From: a virus
Reading direction: 5' to 3' (one strand)
Virus record (IMG/VR): IMGVR_UViG_3300025430_001071
Coordinates: 1 to 46,420 of that record
Length of the DNA: 46,420 nt
A program made the position numbers and the translations under genes. Shown here one piece after another: positions 21,549-44,014 of the stretch (position 1 is its first letter; each line of letters starts with the position of its first letter). The notes under the pieces are model-generated. The model ran no database searches. It saw nothing but the letters and a program-made list of their open reading frames with translations, and was not told the DNA's origin.

Positions 21549-22088
21549 ATGAAAACAATCGGCGATAAGTTAGAACATTTTGTAGTAACAGGTGTTAAGC
21601 CAGGACAACCAGAAGATGCTTTCTTCAACATTACAGATGAAACCTTTTTAGGTAAGTGGAAAGTGATCGTATTCTATCCAAAGGATTTTACATTTGTTTG
21701 CCCAACAGAAATTGTTGCCTATGACAAGTTGAATCAAGATTTTGAAGATCGTGATGCTGTATTGTTGACAGGTTCAACAGACAACGAGTTCTGTAAAATT
21801 GCTTGGCAAAAGAGCCATCCAGATTTGGTCAATATCAAACACACACAATTTGCTGATACACAGCGTGGTGAATTGAGCTTGGCAGAACAACTAGGTGTAT
21901 TCTATGCGCCAGCAGGTGCCGCACTTCGCGCTACATTCATTGTTGATCCAGACAACACGATCCAGCACGTTACAGTAAACAACTTGGACGTAGGTCGTAG
22001 CCCAGAAGAAACTCTGCGTATTCTTGACGCTCTACAAACTGGCGAGCTATGTGCTTGTAACCGTGTGGTAGGTGGGGAGACTCTATAA
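21549..22088 (+). CDS. ahpC: Alkyl hydroperoxide reductase AhpC (peroxiredoxin)
   Basis: A 179-residue 2-Cys peroxiredoxin that reduces hydrogen peroxide and organic peroxides in the cytoplasm. DFTFVCPTE carries the peroxidatic C51; the C-terminal GELCACNR carries C168 and C170 as resolving cysteines, the arrangement of the AhpC type that is recycled by AhpD (as in mycobacteria). AGGAGGAAAT lies just before the ATG. The following ahpD starts at the overlapping last base of the TAA, so the pair is an operon. No AhpF is seen. Confidence 0.95.
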   Translation: MKTIGDKLEHFVVTGVKPGQPEDAFFNITDETFLGKWKVIVFYPKDFTFVCPTEIVAYDKLNQDFEDRDAVLLTGSTDNEFCKIAWQKSHPDLVNIKHTQFADTQRGELSLAEQLGVFYAPAGAALRATFIVDPDNTIQHVTVNNLDVGRSPEETLRILDALQTGELCACNRVVGGETL

Positions 22089-36818: not shown

Positions 36819-36848
36819 AAAGTCATTAACTTGATACTAAATAGTTTT

Positions 36849-37217
36849 ATGGATATATTACTATTATTAGTGTTGTACCAGATTAAACACTGGTACGCAG
36901 ACTTCAAAATCCAAACCTATATGCAGACCATTAAAAAAGGTGTCTGGTTAGACCCTATTGGCATGAGCCATACATGGGATCATATTTGGACTTCTATCAT
37001 TATATTATCCGCTTTTTGGTTTATCCATCCTTTTGATATATTCAGCATACCAGTGATAGTATGTTGTGAAGGACTTTACCATTACTTGGTAGATTATACC
37101 AAGGTCAAATATGGCTGTAAGGACAACACCAAACCCTTGTTTTGGAGTCAGTTTGGTTTAGATCAAATGGCTCATCAACTCAGCTACCTAGCGATTGCTG
37201 GGTATATAATACTTTAA
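36849..37217 (+). CDS. DUF3307-like membrane protein (122 residues)
   Basis: Membrane protein with three to four hydrophobic segments (MDILLLLVLYQIKHWYADF; IIILSAFWFIHPFDIFSIPVIV; LSYLAIAGYIIL) and conserved histidines/aspartates (KHWYADF, HTWDHIW, EGLYHYLVDYTK). This H/D-x-x-D in membrane helices resembles DUF3307. The ATG at 36849 is preferred over the TTG at 36831 as it starts the first helix cleanly. Function unknown. Confidence 0.7.
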   Translation: MDILLLLVLYQIKHWYADFKIQTYMQTIKKGVWLDPIGMSHTWDHIWTSIIILSAFWFIHPFDIFSIPVIVCCEGLYHYLVDYTKVKYGCKDNTKPLFWSQFGLDQMAHQLSYLAIAGYIIL

Positions 37218-37276: not shown

Positions 37277-37786
37277 ATGAAAAAGTTCATATTTTCATTA
37301 ATCGCGACATTATCAATGGTTTCTGCTCACGCAGAAATCGCACAACAATTTAAAGATCCCACATTCTCAGGCAATGGATGGGCTCAACAACAGCTAACAA
37401 TTATACAAATGGAGCAAAGCGCCAAGGCAGCTATTGCTTCAAAAGAAGCTGCCGCTGTGAGTGCTGCCAATGCCGCTGCCGCACAGACTCCTATAGCACA
37501 GTTCATGAGTCTGTTTACTAGTCAAGTATACAGTCAACTAGCAACACAGCTAACCAACAATTTATTTTCCAGTTGTACTAGCGCAAATGGCGCGGCAATT
37601 CCAGGATGTAATCCAGCAACAACTGGTACTTTTAATATCAATCCAACCACCACAGTGAGTTGGTTTAAAACCGTTAACGACCCCAATTTCAAGGGACAGA
37701 GTAGTGTTACTCTTACTGTAAAGAACACAGCTGATCCAAGTCAGAACACCAGTGTTACTGTTCCAATCAGTCAATTTTCATTCTAA
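37277..37786 (+). CDS. csgF: CsgF-like curli assembly protein
   Basis: The 169-residue exported protein (signal peptide MKKFIFSLIATLSMVSAHA) begins its mature part with AQQFKDPTFSGNGWAQQQLT, matching the QFxNPxFGGN start of CsgF, the region that plugs into the CsgG pore. The C-terminal strands (VTLTVKNTADPSQNTSVTV) end in ISQFSF, as in CsgF. An Ala-rich helix fills the middle. In curli systems CsgF caps the outer side of CsgG and helps nucleate fibres. ACGGAGGAACG precedes the ATG; csgG starts 8 bases after the stop. Confidence 0.85.
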   Translation: MKKFIFSLIATLSMVSAHAEIAQQFKDPTFSGNGWAQQQLTIIQMEQSAKAAIASKEAAAVSAANAAAAQTPIAQFMSLFTSQVYSQLATQLTNNLFSSCTSANGAAIPGCNPATTGTFNINPTTTVSWFKTVNDPNFKGQSSVTLTVKNTADPSQNTSVTVPISQFSF

Positions 37787-37794
37787 GGTGACAA

Positions 37795-38898
37795 ATGAAA
37801 TTATTTAAATTAACACTAATTGCTTTGACCGTAGCCCTAATGGCAGGTTGTAGCACAATACGTCCCATGGGCGAAGTAAAAATATCAGATCAACCAGAAA
37901 TTGTTAAAAATCAAGCTAGAGATTTTGAGTCTGTACCCAGTCCAGATGGTCCTCCAGTGGCAGTGGCAGTTTACAGTTTTAAAGATCTAACAGGACAACG
38001 TAAAAATAGTGCTACATTGAGTTTATTCTCAACAGCGGTTACACAAGGTGCTGAAGCATATCTTATTAAATCTTTGATAGAAGTAGGCAATCGTCAGTGG
38101 TTCACTGTTGTTGAACGTACTAATTTAGACGACTTGTTGAAAGAACGTCAAATGATCAAACAAACTCGTGAGATCTATGAAGGTGCTAAAGCAAGATTAC
38201 TTCCACCAATGACCATGGCTGGTGTTATCCTTGAAGGCGGCATTATTGATTATAATACCAACGTGTTAACAGGTGGCACTGGTATAGCAATATTTGGCAT
38301 TGGCCCACAGACTCAATACACACAGGATCAAGTGGTAATTAGTCTACGCCTAGTAAGCGTACAAACTGGTGAAATATTGACCACAGTTACCGTACAAAAG
38401 AACCTATTGAGCACAGGGGAAGGCATCACTGCCATGAAGTTCTTTAATCAAGACACACAGGCATTTGAGTTAGATAGCAGTCAGAGTTTTAATGAACCAG
38501 GCAACTATGCTCTACGCAGTGCCATTGAACAGGGTGTAGTTGAATTAATTAAAAAGGGCGAGCGTCAAGGACTATGGAAATATAAAGGTGCTGACTTGCC
38601 CAAGGTAGAAGATCCTGTAGTAGAAACTACTCCAGCGACTGTGGTACCAGTAGAAGAACCCAAGAAAGAGGAAAGCAAGCCTGTGAGCTCGATCGCTCCA
38701 GAAACATTCGGAAAGTTAACAGCTTGGGCGAACATGAGAAAACATGAAGATTATAGCAGTGAGAAAATAACACTTCTTAAACCAGGCACACCTGTTAAAA
38801 TTATTGATCGAGGTGATCGCTTTAGCCTAATTGAAGTGGATAGCAAACGAGGTTGGATATACAACAACTTTATAACACAAGGAAACCAAAAGGGATAA
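37795..38898 (+). CDS. csgG: CsgG-like curli secretion channel with SH3-like extension
   Basis: A 367-residue lipoprotein: signal with lipobox LMAGC (C19). Residues 50-260 follow CsgG: VAVAVYSFKDLTGQRKNS, TAVTQGAEAYLIKSL, FTVVERTNLDDLLKERQMI, GVILEGGIIDYNTN, VVISLRLVSVQTGEIL, which build the nine-fold outer-membrane channel. A Pro/Glu linker (275-300) leads to an extra domain (WANMRKHEDYSSEKITLLKP ... RGWIYNNFI) with the pattern of a bacterial SH3 domain, not present in E. coli CsgG (277 residues). It forms the export pore for the curlin-like proteins that follow. Confidence 0.92.
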   Translation: MKLFKLTLIALTVALMAGCSTIRPMGEVKISDQPEIVKNQARDFESVPSPDGPPVAVAVYSFKDLTGQRKNSATLSLFSTAVTQGAEAYLIKSLIEVGNRQWFTVVERTNLDDLLKERQMIKQTREIYEGAKARLLPPMTMAGVILEGGIIDYNTNVLTGGTGIAIFGIGPQTQYTQDQVVISLRLVSVQTGEILTTVTVQKNLLSTGEGITAMKFFNQDTQAFELDSSQSFNEPGNYALRSAIEQGVVELIKKGERQGLWKYKGADLPKVEDPVVETTPATVVPVEEPKKEESKPVSSIAPETFGKLTAWANMRKHEDYSSEKITLLKPGTPVKIIDRGDRFSLIEVDSKRGWIYNNFITQGNQKG

Positions 38899-38919
38899 CA
38901 CTACCCCCAGGAGTAAAAA

Positions 38920-39720
38920 ATGAAAAAAACACTTATAACACTAGCACTACTAGCAACATTTTCAGCATTTGGACAAAGTGCCCCTAGCACACCTATAGCG
39001 GCTACAGCACCAAGTCCAGCGCAGATGATTGCAGTAACAGATACTAACTTTTCAGCAGGCGTACAATCAGCTCTAAACGGAGCAAATACTAACATTGTAT
39101 ACCTACAGCAAAGTGGTAATACACCAACTGTAAACATCCTACAAGATGGTAACAGCAACCGAGCTGGAGCAAATGCCAGCGGTGTAATTAATCCTATGAT
39201 CCTACAAGGTGATAACCAAACATTGACTTTGATTCAACAAGGTGATGGTAACTTGGTAAACACACTACAACTAGTTACAACATCAGGTTCTAGCAACGTT
39301 ACTATTCAACAGTTAGGTCATCAAAATACTATCAACGCACTATGCGGTGGTGGTTCAGCTAACTGTAACAATGTCAATATCAACTGGGCATTGACTGGTA
39401 ACAGCAACACTATCAACTACACAGCTGGTGGCAATCAATTGACCAGCGGTATTAATGTTAACGGTAATGGTAACACATTTACTGATCAACAAAGTTCTGG
39501 TGTAACAGGCGCTGGTAGCCAACAGTTAATTACTGTAACTGGTAACAACAACAGTTTTAGTTTGTCACAGTCTAGCCTAATGCCTAGCAGTATGGTAGTA
39601 AACCAAAACGGTACGGGAACAGCATTTAATATTAGCCAAAGTGGTAGCTTCTCTAACGTAGCCAACGTTCAAAGCAGTGCTAACGGCGGTACTATTAATA
39701 TCACACAACGCAGCCACTAA
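38920..39720 (+). CDS. Curlin-repeat protein (CsgA/CsgB-like)
   Basis: A 266-residue exported protein (signal MKKTLITLALLATFSAFGQ). The mature part is built of repeats of the curlin type, e.g. SSNVTIQQLGHQNTIN and NIVYLQQSGNTPTVNILQDGN: Gln and Asn at fixed spacing with Gly turns (Q-x-G-x-x-N). At least six to eight units can be seen. Such repeats stack into an amyloid beta-solenoid. It carries two Cys in the middle (ALCGGGSANC). Placed directly after csgG with GGAG before its ATG, it is the likely secreted subunit. Confidence 0.85.
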   Translation: MKKTLITLALLATFSAFGQSAPSTPIAATAPSPAQMIAVTDTNFSAGVQSALNGANTNIVYLQQSGNTPTVNILQDGNSNRAGANASGVINPMILQGDNQTLTLIQQGDGNLVNTLQLVTTSGSSNVTIQQLGHQNTINALCGGGSANCNNVNINWALTGNSNTINYTAGGNQLTSGINVNGNGNTFTDQQSSGVTGAGSQQLITVTGNNNSFSLSQSSLMPSSMVVNQNGTGTAFNISQSGSFSNVANVQSSANGGTINITQRSH

Positions 39721-39731
39721 AAGGGGGCATT

Positions 39732-40925
39732 GTGAAGTTATGGCCTCTAATTTTTCTAGTGGCATTATCAGTAGCTCAGGCAGAGATTGGATCTGTAACT
39801 GAGCTAACTGGTAGCGCCACAATCAAGCGCGGTAGTAACACTGTCGCCATAGCCAAAGGCACCGCAATTGAAATTAATGACAAAGTCACGGCCCAAAACG
39901 GCGAAGTCAAAATAACCTTTAAAGATAATACCACAGTCAAAGTAACGGCCAGCAGTAGCATGGTGATAGATGACTTTGTGTACGATCCTAAAACACAGGG
40001 TGGCAAATTAGGCTTAAAAGCCACAGAAGGTACAGTACGCTATGTCAGCGGAAATATCGCACACAATAATCCCAACGCAGTAAACATCAAAACTCCCACA
40101 GCAGCCATTGCGGTACGTGGTACTGATTTTATCATGAGCAGTGATGAAACAGGTAAGAGCATGATAATTTTAATGCCATCATGTGAAGTAGAGCAAAATG
40201 TTAACCTAAAAGGTTTGACCTGTGGTAGTGGTAAAATTGATGTAAACAGTGGTGGGGAAATTATACACATGGATAAGCCATTTCAAGCCACAATGGTTGA
40301 AACAAATGGCACTGCGCCTAGTCCACCTGTAGTTGTTAATTTAAGCAATACCCCAATTGGCAATAACCTACATTTAAGTCCTCCCCAAACAATGAGTGGG
40401 CAGAGCATAGTCGCTGCCGCAAAAGCAGCCGCAGTCAAAACTGGTGATGCCAAAAAAGATGTTGCTAAAAAAGATGATACCGGTAAACAATCTAGCAGTG
40501 ATGCAGGTAATACGCCGCCTGCTGAAACACAAGCACAGGTAGTACAACAGCAACAGCAACGTCAACAACAGGCCGAAGCAGATCAACAGGCCGCGGCCCA
40601 AGCTGCCGCCTCTGCGTTACAACAAGCCGCAAAAGAACAAGCGGCTTTAGAAGCACAGGGCGTAACAGTTAATAGTACTCCTATTACTGATGCTAACGTG
40701 TTTGCTGTATTCCATAATAATGATCCCACACTAAATCAAATTGGCTGGGGCTATGCTAGTTTGAGTCCTAGTGGCAACAACTATGCCAATGTGTCGCTAC
40801 CCTTAAACAGTCAAGTACTTGTGGTAGTTACACAGGATCGTGTGACTGATGCTTATAACTTTGCTGGCGGCAACAACAAGCCACAGGGCAGTATCACTAT
40901 CACACAAACGTATAACACAAAATGA
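39732..40925 (+). CDS. Exported FecR-domain protein
   Basis: The 397-residue protein starts at GTG 39732 with a signal peptide (VKLWPLIFLVALSVAQA). Residues 18-180 form a FecR domain: TELTGSATIKRGSNTVAIAKG, NDKVTAQNGEVKITFKDNTT, and TPTAAIAVRGTDFIM. The middle is low complexity, Lys- then Gln/Ala-rich (coiled), and the C-terminus is a further beta-rich domain. FecR domains occur in signalling and in surface proteins that assemble with peptidoglycan or other partners. Standing between two curlin-repeat genes, it may help anchor or regulate fibre export. Coupled to the next gene by overlap. Confidence 0.8.
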   Translation: MKLWPLIFLVALSVAQAEIGSVTELTGSATIKRGSNTVAIAKGTAIEINDKVTAQNGEVKITFKDNTTVKVTASSSMVIDDFVYDPKTQGGKLGLKATEGTVRYVSGNIAHNNPNAVNIKTPTAAIAVRGTDFIMSSDETGKSMIILMPSCEVEQNVNLKGLTCGSGKIDVNSGGEIIHMDKPFQATMVETNGTAPSPPVVVNLSNTPIGNNLHLSPPQTMSGQSIVAAAKAAAVKTGDAKKDVAKKDDTGKQSSSDAGNTPPAETQAQVVQQQQQRQQQAEADQQAAAQAAASALQQAAKEQAALEAQGVTVNSTPITDANVFAVFHNNDPTLNQIGWGYASLSPSGNNYANVSLPLNSQVLVVVTQDRVTDAYNFAGGNNKPQGSITITQTYNTK

Positions 40926-43069
40926 AAAAGTTTTTATTCTGTTTGTTATTAATGATAACTTCAATGTTGGCAACGGCGCAGAACTTACCAGCTGGCTATA
41001 TTGGGGTATTGCCAAACGGCGCCGGCACTAACGGTTATCAAACATACACATACACCTTTACGCCTAATACATCTGGAGCTTGGTATATAGGGTTTGCATT
41101 TAGGCAAGATCCTGCTTATTGGAGTTTTGGTGCGGTCAGTGTAACAGCCGCTGGTTCGAGTACTAATTTAATACAAAATGGTAATATGCAGTATGGTGGG
41201 TCTACTACAGTAAACAATACCAACTATCAAGGACAAGTAACCACACCAGCAGACTGGGGGGTATGGTATCAAAATGGAACATATCCATCAGCCGCTGGAC
41301 AGTGGCAATGTTGTGGCGGACCTAGTGGTTCTAATGGCGGACAATGGTATGATGGTGCTGTGGGCAGTTATGATGGTATCTATCAAGCTATTAATGTAAC
41401 TGCCGGAGTTACATATACCGTTAGTTTCCAAGCATTGAGTACATCAGGTGCTGAAAATACTTCTAGTATAAGATTAGGCACTTATGCCGGGCAGTGTAAT
41501 TCTGGACAAAGTATCTTCACATGTACCCCACCTAGTTCATCGGGATTTAGCTCAATGTCAACTCCTTCTGATGGACAAGGAGTGGGTGGTGCTCCTCCTC
41601 CCTCTCCTCCGCCCCCAAGTAATGGCGGGGGAACAACCATTTCTGGTAACGGGTCGTCATCTGGATTGAGTGGTATTCAATTTGGCGCAAGTCAAGTGGC
41701 CGACACGCAATGGGATACTGGCAGTTGTTTGAGTTCTAACTCTTGTACTATATATAGTACTAGCCCAGGGATAACTTACGAAAGCGGCAGTCCTACTTAT
41801 ATCGGGTCAGGTCAATATATAGGATTCATACAAAATACAGGCAGTGATAGTTCTAGAAATCCTTGGACCATGATATTATATAATAGTGACGGTACTATTG
41901 CACAGACGTTAGGCACAGGACGTATTGTGGTAGAAGGCAGCGATAATACAGGGCGTAATTACTTTTTCTTTACCAACGATAATTATAATGGAACTCTACT
42001 AAGTGGCAATTTGGGATTGAGTGGGCAAGGTGTTACATTTTCAGGAACCCAAAATCCCACAATATCGCAGACAAATAGTTTTTCATCTAACTTTTCTTCA
42101 ACTCCATTGTCAGCAGGGCAAAGCGGAGGAGGAACTAATAATACTCCAACATTAGTGAGTTCAAGTACTACTAATCAAACTACTACATCATCCAGTACAG
42201 GCACTATAACTGGAGTAAATGATACCATACATTTGCCTAATATAGTGGTATCTGGAGTGAATACCAGCAATTATACATACTCTGTTGTAGGAGTTACTAC
42301 TCCCACAATAACTACAACTACGGTGACTCCTGTCACTACCAACACCTACAGTGATGGTAGCACCACAACTACCAACGGCACCCCTACATCAACACAGACT
42401 ACGACTTATACCTATAGTATAACGCCTGCTACTATCAATAATAGCATGACCAATCCCTATGCTGGTTCTACTACTAACGCTGTTTACATTAACCAAACTA
42501 GCGGAAGTTATAGCAACGTACTGACCGCTAGCCAATATGGACAGGGCAATTTAATCGAAATGTATGTTAACGGAGAAGGCAATAATCTAAACGCTGCACA
42601 AGGATACACCATCAATAGTTTGGGTGTTCCTAGCCAAAGCACAGCCAGCAATTCTAATACAGTAGGGATTACCATATTAGGAAATAATAATACAGTAACA
42701 ACACAGCAGATTGGCAATAATAATACTACCGTGGCCAGTATTACAGGTAATAGCAATCCTACAACTGTTGTACAAACAGGCAACAATAACCAAAGTTTTA
42801 ATCTAATCAATGGTGGCGGCAATGCGTTGACTGTAAGCCAAACTGGTAACAACAATGTAAGCAGTATAAATCTATATGGTGCTAGCAACGTGGCCAGTGT
42901 CACACAGAGCGGCTCTGCCCCAATGAGTTCATTGTTAAACCTAACCAATGCTGGTGGTGCTAATAATGTTAATGTGACGCAAACTGGTGCTACCAGTCAA
43001 AGTTACATACTACAACAAACTTGCTCAAACCCTGCTGGATGTAGCGTGTCAATACACCAAGGTAATTGA
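40922..43069 (+). CDS. Large exported adhesin-like protein with C-terminal curlin repeats
   Basis: The 715-residue protein has a signal peptide (MKKFLFCLLLMITSMLATAQ). Residues 20-200 form a beta-sandwich-like domain with LIQNGNMQYGG and YDGIYQAINVTAGVTYTVSF, the pattern of carbohydrate-binding or DUF642-like modules. A PPPSPPPP linker, a second beta domain and a Thr/Ser-rich stalk follow. The last 190 residues are curlin-like repeats (ITILGNNNTVTTQQIGNNN, TTVVQTGNNNQSFNL, LTVSQTGNNNVSSIN). The design suggests a fibre-tip or adhesive subunit exported through CsgG and joined to the amyloid by its C-terminal repeats. ATGA overlap with the FecR gene. Confidence 0.82.
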   Translation: MKKFLFCLLLMITSMLATAQNLPAGYIGVLPNGAGTNGYQTYTYTFTPNTSGAWYIGFAFRQDPAYWSFGAVSVTAAGSSTNLIQNGNMQYGGSTTVNNTNYQGQVTTPADWGVWYQNGTYPSAAGQWQCCGGPSGSNGGQWYDGAVGSYDGIYQAINVTAGVTYTVSFQALSTSGAENTSSIRLGTYAGQCNSGQSIFTCTPPSSSGFSSMSTPSDGQGVGGAPPPSPPPPSNGGGTTISGNGSSSGLSGIQFGASQVADTQWDTGSCLSSNSCTIYSTSPGITYESGSPTYIGSGQYIGFIQNTGSDSSRNPWTMILYNSDGTIAQTLGTGRIVVEGSDNTGRNYFFFTNDNYNGTLLSGNLGLSGQGVTFSGTQNPTISQTNSFSSNFSSTPLSAGQSGGGTNNTPTLVSSSTTNQTTTSSSTGTITGVNDTIHLPNIVVSGVNTSNYTYSVVGVTTPTITTTTVTPVTTNTYSDGSTTTTNGTPTSTQTTTYTYSITPATINNSMTNPYAGSTTNAVYINQTSGSYSNVLTASQYGQGNLIEMYVNGEGNNLNAAQGYTINSLGVPSQSTASNSNTVGITILGNNNTVTTQQIGNNNTTVASITGNSNPTTVVQTGNNNQSFNLINGGGNALTVSQTGNNNVSSINLYGASNVASVTQSGSAPMSSLLNLTNAGGANNVNVTQTGATSQSYILQQTCSNPAGCSVSIHQGN

Positions 43070-43130: not shown

Positions 43131-44014
43131 GTGAGTGTCATCATTATTACCAAACAAGCAGAAACTGATTACGAAACCAGCCGATTGCTAGAAAGTTTCG
43201 CCGCTAAGAGCATAGCGGTAAGAGTCTGTCACCCCGATGACTTTGACATCGTTGTAGATCGTGATATCCGTAAGGGCATCAAAACAAGGGCGAAGATGTT
43301 GAACTGCCCAAATTGGTATTGGTTAGATTGGGTGCTGGCATATTGCCGTTCCAATTGGCTGTACTTAGGCATTTTGAACAAGCAGGTGTAATTGTAATCA
43401 ACGGTAGCGCACCAATTGAAACTGCCAAAAACAAAATGATGACTAGCCAAATACTGAGTCGTGAAGGGATACCGATTCCCAAGACCATGATGGTACGTTT
43501 TCCCATACAGGAAAAACTTATTGCGGAAAATATTGGATATCCCTGTGTGGTTAAAGTAGTTACTGGCAGTTATGGTGCTGGTGTATATCTATGCGAAAAG
43601 AAGAAAGATTATAAGAAATTAGTGGAATTTATTGAGAGTTTAGGCAATAAAAAGACTCTTTTAGTCCAAGAATATCTAGGTGATCAGCCAGGGGAAGATC
43701 TACGTGTGCTAGTAATAGGCGGTAAGGTTGCAGGTGCTATGAAACGTACTGCTCCTGAGGGAGATTTCCGTGCCAACATCACTAATGGTGGTACTGGTCA
43801 AGGTTTTGAAGTTAGTCCTGAAATTGATTACATTGCCCGTGAAACTGCTCGTGCTTTGGGTTTAACCATAGCAGGTATTGACCTGTTGTTTGACAAACGT
43901 GGATTCCGTGTATGTGAGGCTAACAGTAATCCAGGGTTCAGCGGTTTTGAAAAATACTGCGGAGTTGATGTTGCCGATTTGATTACAGAATATATCAAAT
44001 ACAAAGTTCAATAA
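43131..44014 (+). pseudogene. RimK-like ATP-grasp ligase, interrupted by a frameshift
   Basis: Two frames together make one RimK-like protein. The first, from GTG 43131, reads MSVIIITKQAETDYETSRLL up to IRKGIK at 43283. The homologous sequence then continues in another frame as NKGEDVELPKLVLVRLGAGI, through NKMMTSQILSREGIPIPKTM, VVKVVTGSYGAGVYL (ATP-grasp loop), LVQEYLG, GDFRANITNGG and FRVCEANSNPGFSGFEK (metal-binding E-x-N) to 44014. The break is at an AAAA run at 43281-43284: one more A would restore a single frame of about 294 residues. RimK-type enzymes add glutamate to ribosomal protein S6 or make similar amide bonds. A real knockout, a programmed shift and a sequencing error are all possible; everything else is intact. 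Confidence 0.85.

Follow-up and report, generated by a model that had tools for sequence, protein, structure and literature searches.

A phage-borne curli-type secretion module with mosaic curlin-lectin proteins and a FecR-domain protein that may act as an anchor

Why a phage should carry genes for the export of amyloid fibres is the question raised by a 46,420-nucleotide stretch of viral DNA (IMG/VR record IMGVR_UViG_3300025430_001071, positions 1 to 46,420; hereafter the window), in which five genes between positions 37277 and 43069 encode a CsgF-like protein, a CsgG-like channel, two curlin-repeat proteins (curlin-1 and curlin-2) and a FecR-domain protein. Phage curli genes have been without an agreed function since 2020. 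A preliminary description, made from the sequence of the window, had read the five genes as a contiguous, coupled cluster forming a minimal amyloid export machine with substrates. All five open reading frames were found in place on the plus strand in a compact, operon-like arrangement, family matches support a minimal type VIII (curli) export system together with two curlin substrates for it, and the designation of the cluster as a phage-borne type VIII secretion module, i.e., fibre machinery, is well supported by sequence. We further propose, with a probability of approximately 0.62, that a lectin-tipped curli fibre of the phage is exported in the course of infection, its route being an anchored pore of CsgG and CsgF. 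The export machine, its substrates and a protein joining an N-terminal domain to curlin repeats thus stand from the preliminary description. Its list of parts was not complete, as it lacks the C-terminal SH3 tail of CsgG and, from the module of most relatives, a CHASE2-adenylate cyclase and two paired small membrane proteins.

The identity of the channel gene csgG (37795-38898) is firm, as its product matched the Pfam CsgG family at 8.3e-47 and the solved CsgG structure in the Protein Data Bank (PDB) at 5.6e-41, and carries the lipobox LMAGC. The product of csgF (37277-37786) has a signal-peptide-like N-terminus followed by QFKDPTFSGN, which aligned to the E. coli CsgF pore segment at the beginning of the mature protein (FQFRNPNFGGN); its Pfam CsgF score (1.2e-5) was barely above the family cut-off, the phage family phrog_35372 matched at 2.6e-20, and the pattern QFKnPaFsG is kept among phage CsgF proteins aligned with E. 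coli CsgF. The key motifs previously pointed out in both proteins were therefore confirmed. Past a linker, the C-terminus of CsgG holds an SH3_3 domain (residues 312-360; Pfam, 4.9e-8), and SH3 tails were also found on CsgG proteins from several phage branches. SH3 domains of this type often bind cell walls, and the C-terminus of CsgG is periplasmic in the known structure. Near the pore constriction, mature position 48 is occupied by Arg in 83 of 87 phage CsgG proteins, whereas Phe or Tyr is usual, and Arg is not among the commonest residues, at this position in bacterial CsgG (n = 20).

In line with the preliminary description, which had reported CsgE, CsgC and CsgD as absent, CsgE was not found in the 13 viral records searched for it, and neither CsgC nor LuxR-type (CsgD-like) domains were found in the nine viral records searched for these. 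As CsgE was also not found in the bacterial genomes (n = 15) whose csgG genes are nearest, it appears not to be needed in this branch; the CsgE adaptor is present in gammaproteobacteria but is not universal.

Curlin-1 (38920-39720) is an exported curlin-repeat protein without any Pfam match, which was recognized from an excess of phi-x-Q-x-G motifs (6 observed as compared to 0.6 expected; none of 2000 shuffled sequences reached this number), from many Q, G and N positions that are invariant among 20 orthologues, from the NCBIfam CsgA model (6.8e-4) and from alignment of its profile with that of curlin-2 (hhalign, 98.6%). It is likely to be the main fibre subunit. Curlin-2 (40922-43069; 715 residues), the reading frame of which overlaps the end of fecR by 4 bases (the median gap in related viral contigs is also -4 bases), matched Pfam Curlin_rpt at 2.6e-5, and its profile matched the sequence of a solved curlin (8c50) at 1.1e-3. 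Curlin repeats are hence present in both proteins, as previously described, as are signal peptides, for which visual inspection and hydropathy were the sole basis. An AlphaFold2 (AF2) model of curlin-2 built from 20 sequences, low in overall confidence (predicted local distance difference test, pLDDT, 56), showed the C-terminal part (residues ~507-713) as a regular beta-solenoid, with ten-residue blocks between residues 521 and 690 mostly at pLDDT 74-94 and at 62-68 near residues 561-580. Solenoid matches of this model reached Z scores of 15-16, with SufB/SufD-like proteins in the best rows and no solved curlin among the rows, and no Foldseek match fell below 1e-3.

The two ends of curlin-2 differ sharply in their conservation. 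Among 48 relatives, 98% of protein pairs could be aligned over the C-terminal 190 residues as compared to 43% over the remainder; among 54 relatives, F5/8 type C domains were found in 17, PA14 domains in 4 and a GLEYA domain in 1. These domain families often bind sugars. PA14 is also combined with curlin repeats in gp018 of the cultured phage HTVC008M, and a GH92 enzyme of solved structure was matched over part of its length by the curlin-2 profile (7.5e-15). In the window, a jelly-roll-like region (residues ~22-191; CBM35 and collagen-binding domains among the structural matches) is followed by a middle domain and the solenoid. By sequence, curlin-2 is a mosaic of a constant curlin C-terminus and a variable N-terminus, and because the C-termini are constant while the heads vary, the variable part would be the part that is presented. 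The idea that the 715-residue protein adds a binding domain to curlin repeats, as in an adhesive tip, is thus strengthened by its orthologues, and exchangeable heads of sugar-binding type suggest hairs for gripping.

As the cluster could have been host sequence in a chimeric assembly, its distribution among viruses was investigated. A search with the window CsgG retrieved 32 viral loci, and an alignment search found 495 or more viral relatives of CsgG, 80 of them being retained; with so many relatives, the phage curli module would be common whatever its role. The order csgF-csgG-curlin-1-fecR-(curlin-2) was invariant in 98 distinct viral contigs, save for genes cut by contig ends. In these loci, which were picked by CsgG so that the counts describe csgG-holding modules, and among contigs of sufficient reach, csgF was present in 96/96, curlin-1 in 90/90, the FecR-domain gene in 86/86, curlin-2 in 65/76 and the CHASE2-cyclase in 64/69. 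Moreover, genes found upstream in the window (hsp20-like, ClpS-like, heme-oxygenase-like and DUF3307) recur in 53-58 related loci, and a T4-type gp23 capsid gene shares one 383-kb contig with a module copy. This synteny beside shared phage genes rules out a chimeric assembly. A tree of CsgG proteins placed every phage sequence on one side of a branch (support 99/97) from 16 bacterial CsgG proteins, a small sample gathered by similarity to the phage sequences; this topology is compatible with one viral lineage.

The same conservation bears on the proposal that CsgG and CsgF form a pinholin-like pore for lysis or membrane depolarisation, with the curlin genes as passengers. This was put forward on structural grounds for the module of phage Melnitz (PMC9004378), and many relatives do carry, upstream of or near the module, a conserved pair of small membrane proteins (85-115 residues, typically ~90), one Melnitz copy of which weakly matched a holin family along the first 23 residues (phrog_4898, 1.1e-4). 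Passengers, however, would decay, whereas curlin-1 and the FecR-domain gene are kept in every locus that is long enough, the curlin motifs are invariant and the curlin-2 heads are shuffled. In addition, CsgG is an outer-membrane protein, the outer membrane does not hold a proton gradient, and no such small pair was seen in the window. Overall, we regard a lysis function as quite unlikely.

The fifth gene, fecR (39732-40925; GTG start), had been described as encoding a FecR protein; this holds for the domain (Pfam FecR, 9.7e-10; phrog_37870, 1.1e-60) but probably not for the sense of a regulator. The FecR domain stands directly after the signal peptide, the sole hydrophobic segment by hydropathy lies at residue 1, and the protein has neither the cytoplasmic anti-sigma part nor the later membrane helix by which a FecI/FecR-type regulator was to be recognized. 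No FecI-type sigma factor was seen among the neighbouring genes scanned, where no search aimed at sigma factors was made. The architecture of the FecR-domain protein counts against the view, taken in the pelagiphage papers, that nutrients or cofactors (iron, cobalamin) are taken up or expelled through the pore and that FecR controls this. The FecR name, the absence of the CsgE gate, by which the pore could stay open, and the presence in the window of a porin and of 5-aminolevulinate synthase (ALAS; haem synthesis) would suit such a role; on the other hand, the FecR relatives scanned are adhesin-like, and both the two curlin substrates and the lectin-type heads would be left unexplained. We therefore consider uptake or efflux very unlikely, and the FecR-domain protein is, on its sequence features, probably not an iron regulator.

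To which proteins the phage FecR-domain protein is related was assessed with its profile against 289 alphaproteobacterial genomes, 99 of which had matches (the longest open frame comprised 6913 residues), the best of these being examined in a list unscreened for true FecI/FecR regulators. The 20 best loci were mostly long open frames with the FecR domain ~70-145 residues in, and the remainder were shorter proteins, several with an export-signal-like start. Four long proteins were scanned; all four contained FecR, RTX repeats were present in three of the four, one of the RTX-bearing proteins also had cadherin/Ig repeats, one of the four is followed by an ABC transporter gene, and in two the NCBIfam retention_LapA model overlapped (1e-8 and 1.3e-5). 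All 27 phage FecR proteins weakly matched the Leptospira surface adhesin Lsa33. In the structural model, which comprises an N-terminal anchor-like beta domain, a helical or low-confidence middle and a conserved C-terminal part, residues 16-111 matched the "cell surface anchoring domain" 5ix9 (Foldseek E 8.2e-4; Z 8.2 over 73 residues), which we take to be the N-terminal retention domain of a Marinomonas ice-binding adhesin. A sequence search of the PDB with the FecR profile gave weak matches only (e.g. ribosomal L14), and in the literature searched no paper joins "retention module" with FecR and none mentions 5ix9. In LapA systems, the retention module remains periplasmic and thereby keeps the adhesin within its outer-membrane channel (PMC13090378); by analogy, the CsgG pore may be held or plugged by the FecR-domain protein, and a role as anchor or plug appears more likely than one in regulation. 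Two other candidate roles were set aside. The FecR-domain protein as a simple stand-in for CsgE was weakened by the nearest alphaproteobacterial curli loci, which have neither, so that a system without CsgE needs no FecR, and the C-terminus of the protein as a curlin repeat was rejected, the motif count being not above expectation.

In the mechanism that we propose, phage proteins would leave the cytoplasm through the host Sec pathway during infection, CsgG would form the outer-membrane pore with CsgF as its cap, and the SH3 tail would probably tie CsgG to peptidoglycan. Curlin-1 would be secreted and polymerise, and curlin-2 would join the fibre by its curlin part and display a head of sugar-binding type. 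The FecR-domain protein would be a periplasmic anchor or plug of the pore or fibre, like a retention module, rather than an iron regulator, and the outcome would be an infected cell with an adhesive amyloid coat. The role of the FecR-domain protein and the benefit to the phage are what we infer beyond the gene families; as the heads are what varies, the best fit is a grip on cells or polysaccharide, be it for aggregation, for the capture of new hosts or to exclude rivals. It is possible, but tentative, that the whole forms an amyloid fibre with exchangeable lectin heads, locked in the CsgG pore by a FecR plug derived from giant adhesins, with the CHASE2-cyclase sensing the periplasm.

Several observations weigh against this reading. 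The curlin-lectin seems not to be essential, as curlin-2 is missing in some loci and is replaced after FecR in two others by proteins of 1445 and 798 residues (L087:10901-15238 and L125:10952-13348, respectively), which had no Pfam match and whose C-termini, by eye, resemble outer-membrane barrel ends. The N-terminal domain of curlin-2 in the window has no Pfam match and shows weak jelly-roll likeness (Z ~6). None of the 27 phage FecR proteins matched retention_LapA (NF033682) at E 0.01, the FecR model is mostly of low confidence, and the periplasmic domain of the anti-sigma protein PupR was second to 5ix9 among its structural matches (Z 6.8). Moreover, the alphaproteobacterial loci retrieved showed no FecR-domain gene next to csgG, so that the nearest bacteria offer no precedent for a FecR role at csgG. 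Finally, Melnitz carries the whole module, yet cell clumping was not seen in culture (PMC9004378).

Instead of gripping cells, the fibre could block other phages by masking or occupying surface receptors (superinfection exclusion). Masking would be in keeping with heads whose variation resembles that of receptor-binding domains, and metatranscriptomes show expression of the module in nature (PMC9599517); however, the same machinery would aggregate cells too, and sequence does not separate both uses. Exclusion as the function in itself appears unlikely. If a lectin-tipped fibre is indeed exported, many aquatic phages might make the infected cell a gripping device, i.e., a phage-run adhesion organelle with a binding specificity that evolves via domain swapping. 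The lectin-type heads, present even in cultured HTVC008M, give a concrete prediction, namely glycan or cell binding.

The module as such is not new. The genes csgF and csgG were reported in pelagimyophages in 2020, with a proposal of sibling capture (PMC7029224), and a description followed in 2022 of the module, comprising curlin fibres, FecR, another curlin, an adenylate cyclase and a "histidine kinase", together with its ocean spread and expression in metatranscriptomes, exclusion and aggregation being proposed (PMC9599517); the Melnitz module was published in the same year (PMC9004378). Related phages thus show the cluster both in print and in the 98 contigs, the window cluster is by sequence a divergent member of this published module, and the ideas of aggregation, phage blocking and biofilm retention were already in the literature. 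New here are the mosaic lectin-type heads, the anchor-like reading of FecR, the SH3-tailed CsgG and a corrected kinase label. The "histidine kinases" (PMC9599517) appear, from their position, to be the pair of small membrane proteins, which showed no kinase match and, at ~90 residues, are too short to hold a kinase. Together, this correction and the anchor reading of FecR weaken the basis for the iron-regulation idea.

Pelagiphage modules (HTVC008M gp014-gp019 and those of HTVC023P-type podophages) have the same order csgF-csgG-curlin-FecR-curlin and no CsgE. The window differs from them by the SH3 tail of its CsgG, which is only ~44% identical to those of cultured phages, and by a much longer curlin-2 (715 residues as compared to 441 in HTVC008M); the small pair was not seen in the window, nor was a cyclase in the 3.35 kb left after curlin-2. 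The Melnitz record (MZ577097.1) has the same five-gene order with a CHASE2-cyclase annotated; while the paper states that csgA and csgB are lacking, a FecR protein and two proteins with curlin repeats are given in the annotation as deposited, and the Melnitz curlin-2 had no lectin-type match. Bacterial curli systems (E. coli csgBA/csgDEFG and alphaproteobacterial loci) share CsgG with its lipobox, CsgF with its pore segment and the curlin repeats, but differ in the position-48 residue of CsgG and in lacking FecR beside csgG. LapA and MpAFP retention modules resemble the phage FecR protein in the fold match to 5ix9 and in the retention_LapA overlap of its cellular relatives; the phage protein, on the other hand, has a Sec-type signal, stands separate and falls below the LapA model. 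Caulobacter HfaB, a CsgG relative of the HfaA/HfaB/HfaD system, is part of the complex anchoring the holdfast (PMC6707917); the HfaB model matched the window CsgG at 3.2e-8, with 33 bits as compared to 154 bits for the CsgG model.

Among the neighbouring genes, the CHASE2-adenylate cyclase belongs to the module in most relatives and is probably a sensor. It was not seen in the 3.35 kb between curlin-2 and the contig end; in a near relative (L002) it lies 4.3 kb on. A DUF3307 membrane protein (36831-37217, plus strand; Pfam, 5.7e-6) is encoded directly 5' of csgF, an arrangement found in 53 related loci, and may be a module member.

Three contigs (L036, L039 and L053) filed as Rhodobacteraceae, Flavobacteriaceae and Pelagibacter have FecR beside csgG, but in a phage-type module; they probably represent phage DNA that was assigned to bacterial genomes during binning, and L053 also has phage genes, judged by eye. 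One 383-kb contig (IMGVR_UViG_3300042868_005134) has csgG-type matches at both ends, the end match beginning inside csgG, which would correspond to two copies or to a circular genome cut there. The family phrog_2 was dropped as a phage marker because it matches most control genomes, and a match to "Salmonella phage S.Kent 1-2-1" (1499 bases) was set aside as likely bacterial DNA.

Between positions 21549 and 34761, the window is rich in host-type genes, some of them named by eye, including an AhpC/AhpD-like pair, a PorB-type porin, ClpX, ClpS-like, hsp20-like and heme-oxygenase-like genes and ALAS (1.2e-163); as host clues, the porin and ALAS point different ways. Immediately 3' of the cluster, a RimK-like ATP-grasp gene is split between two frames (43131-43391 and 43313-44014), whereas its counterpart in L002 (16429-17313) is whole at 294 residues, and the split reflects either a broken gene or a sequencing error.

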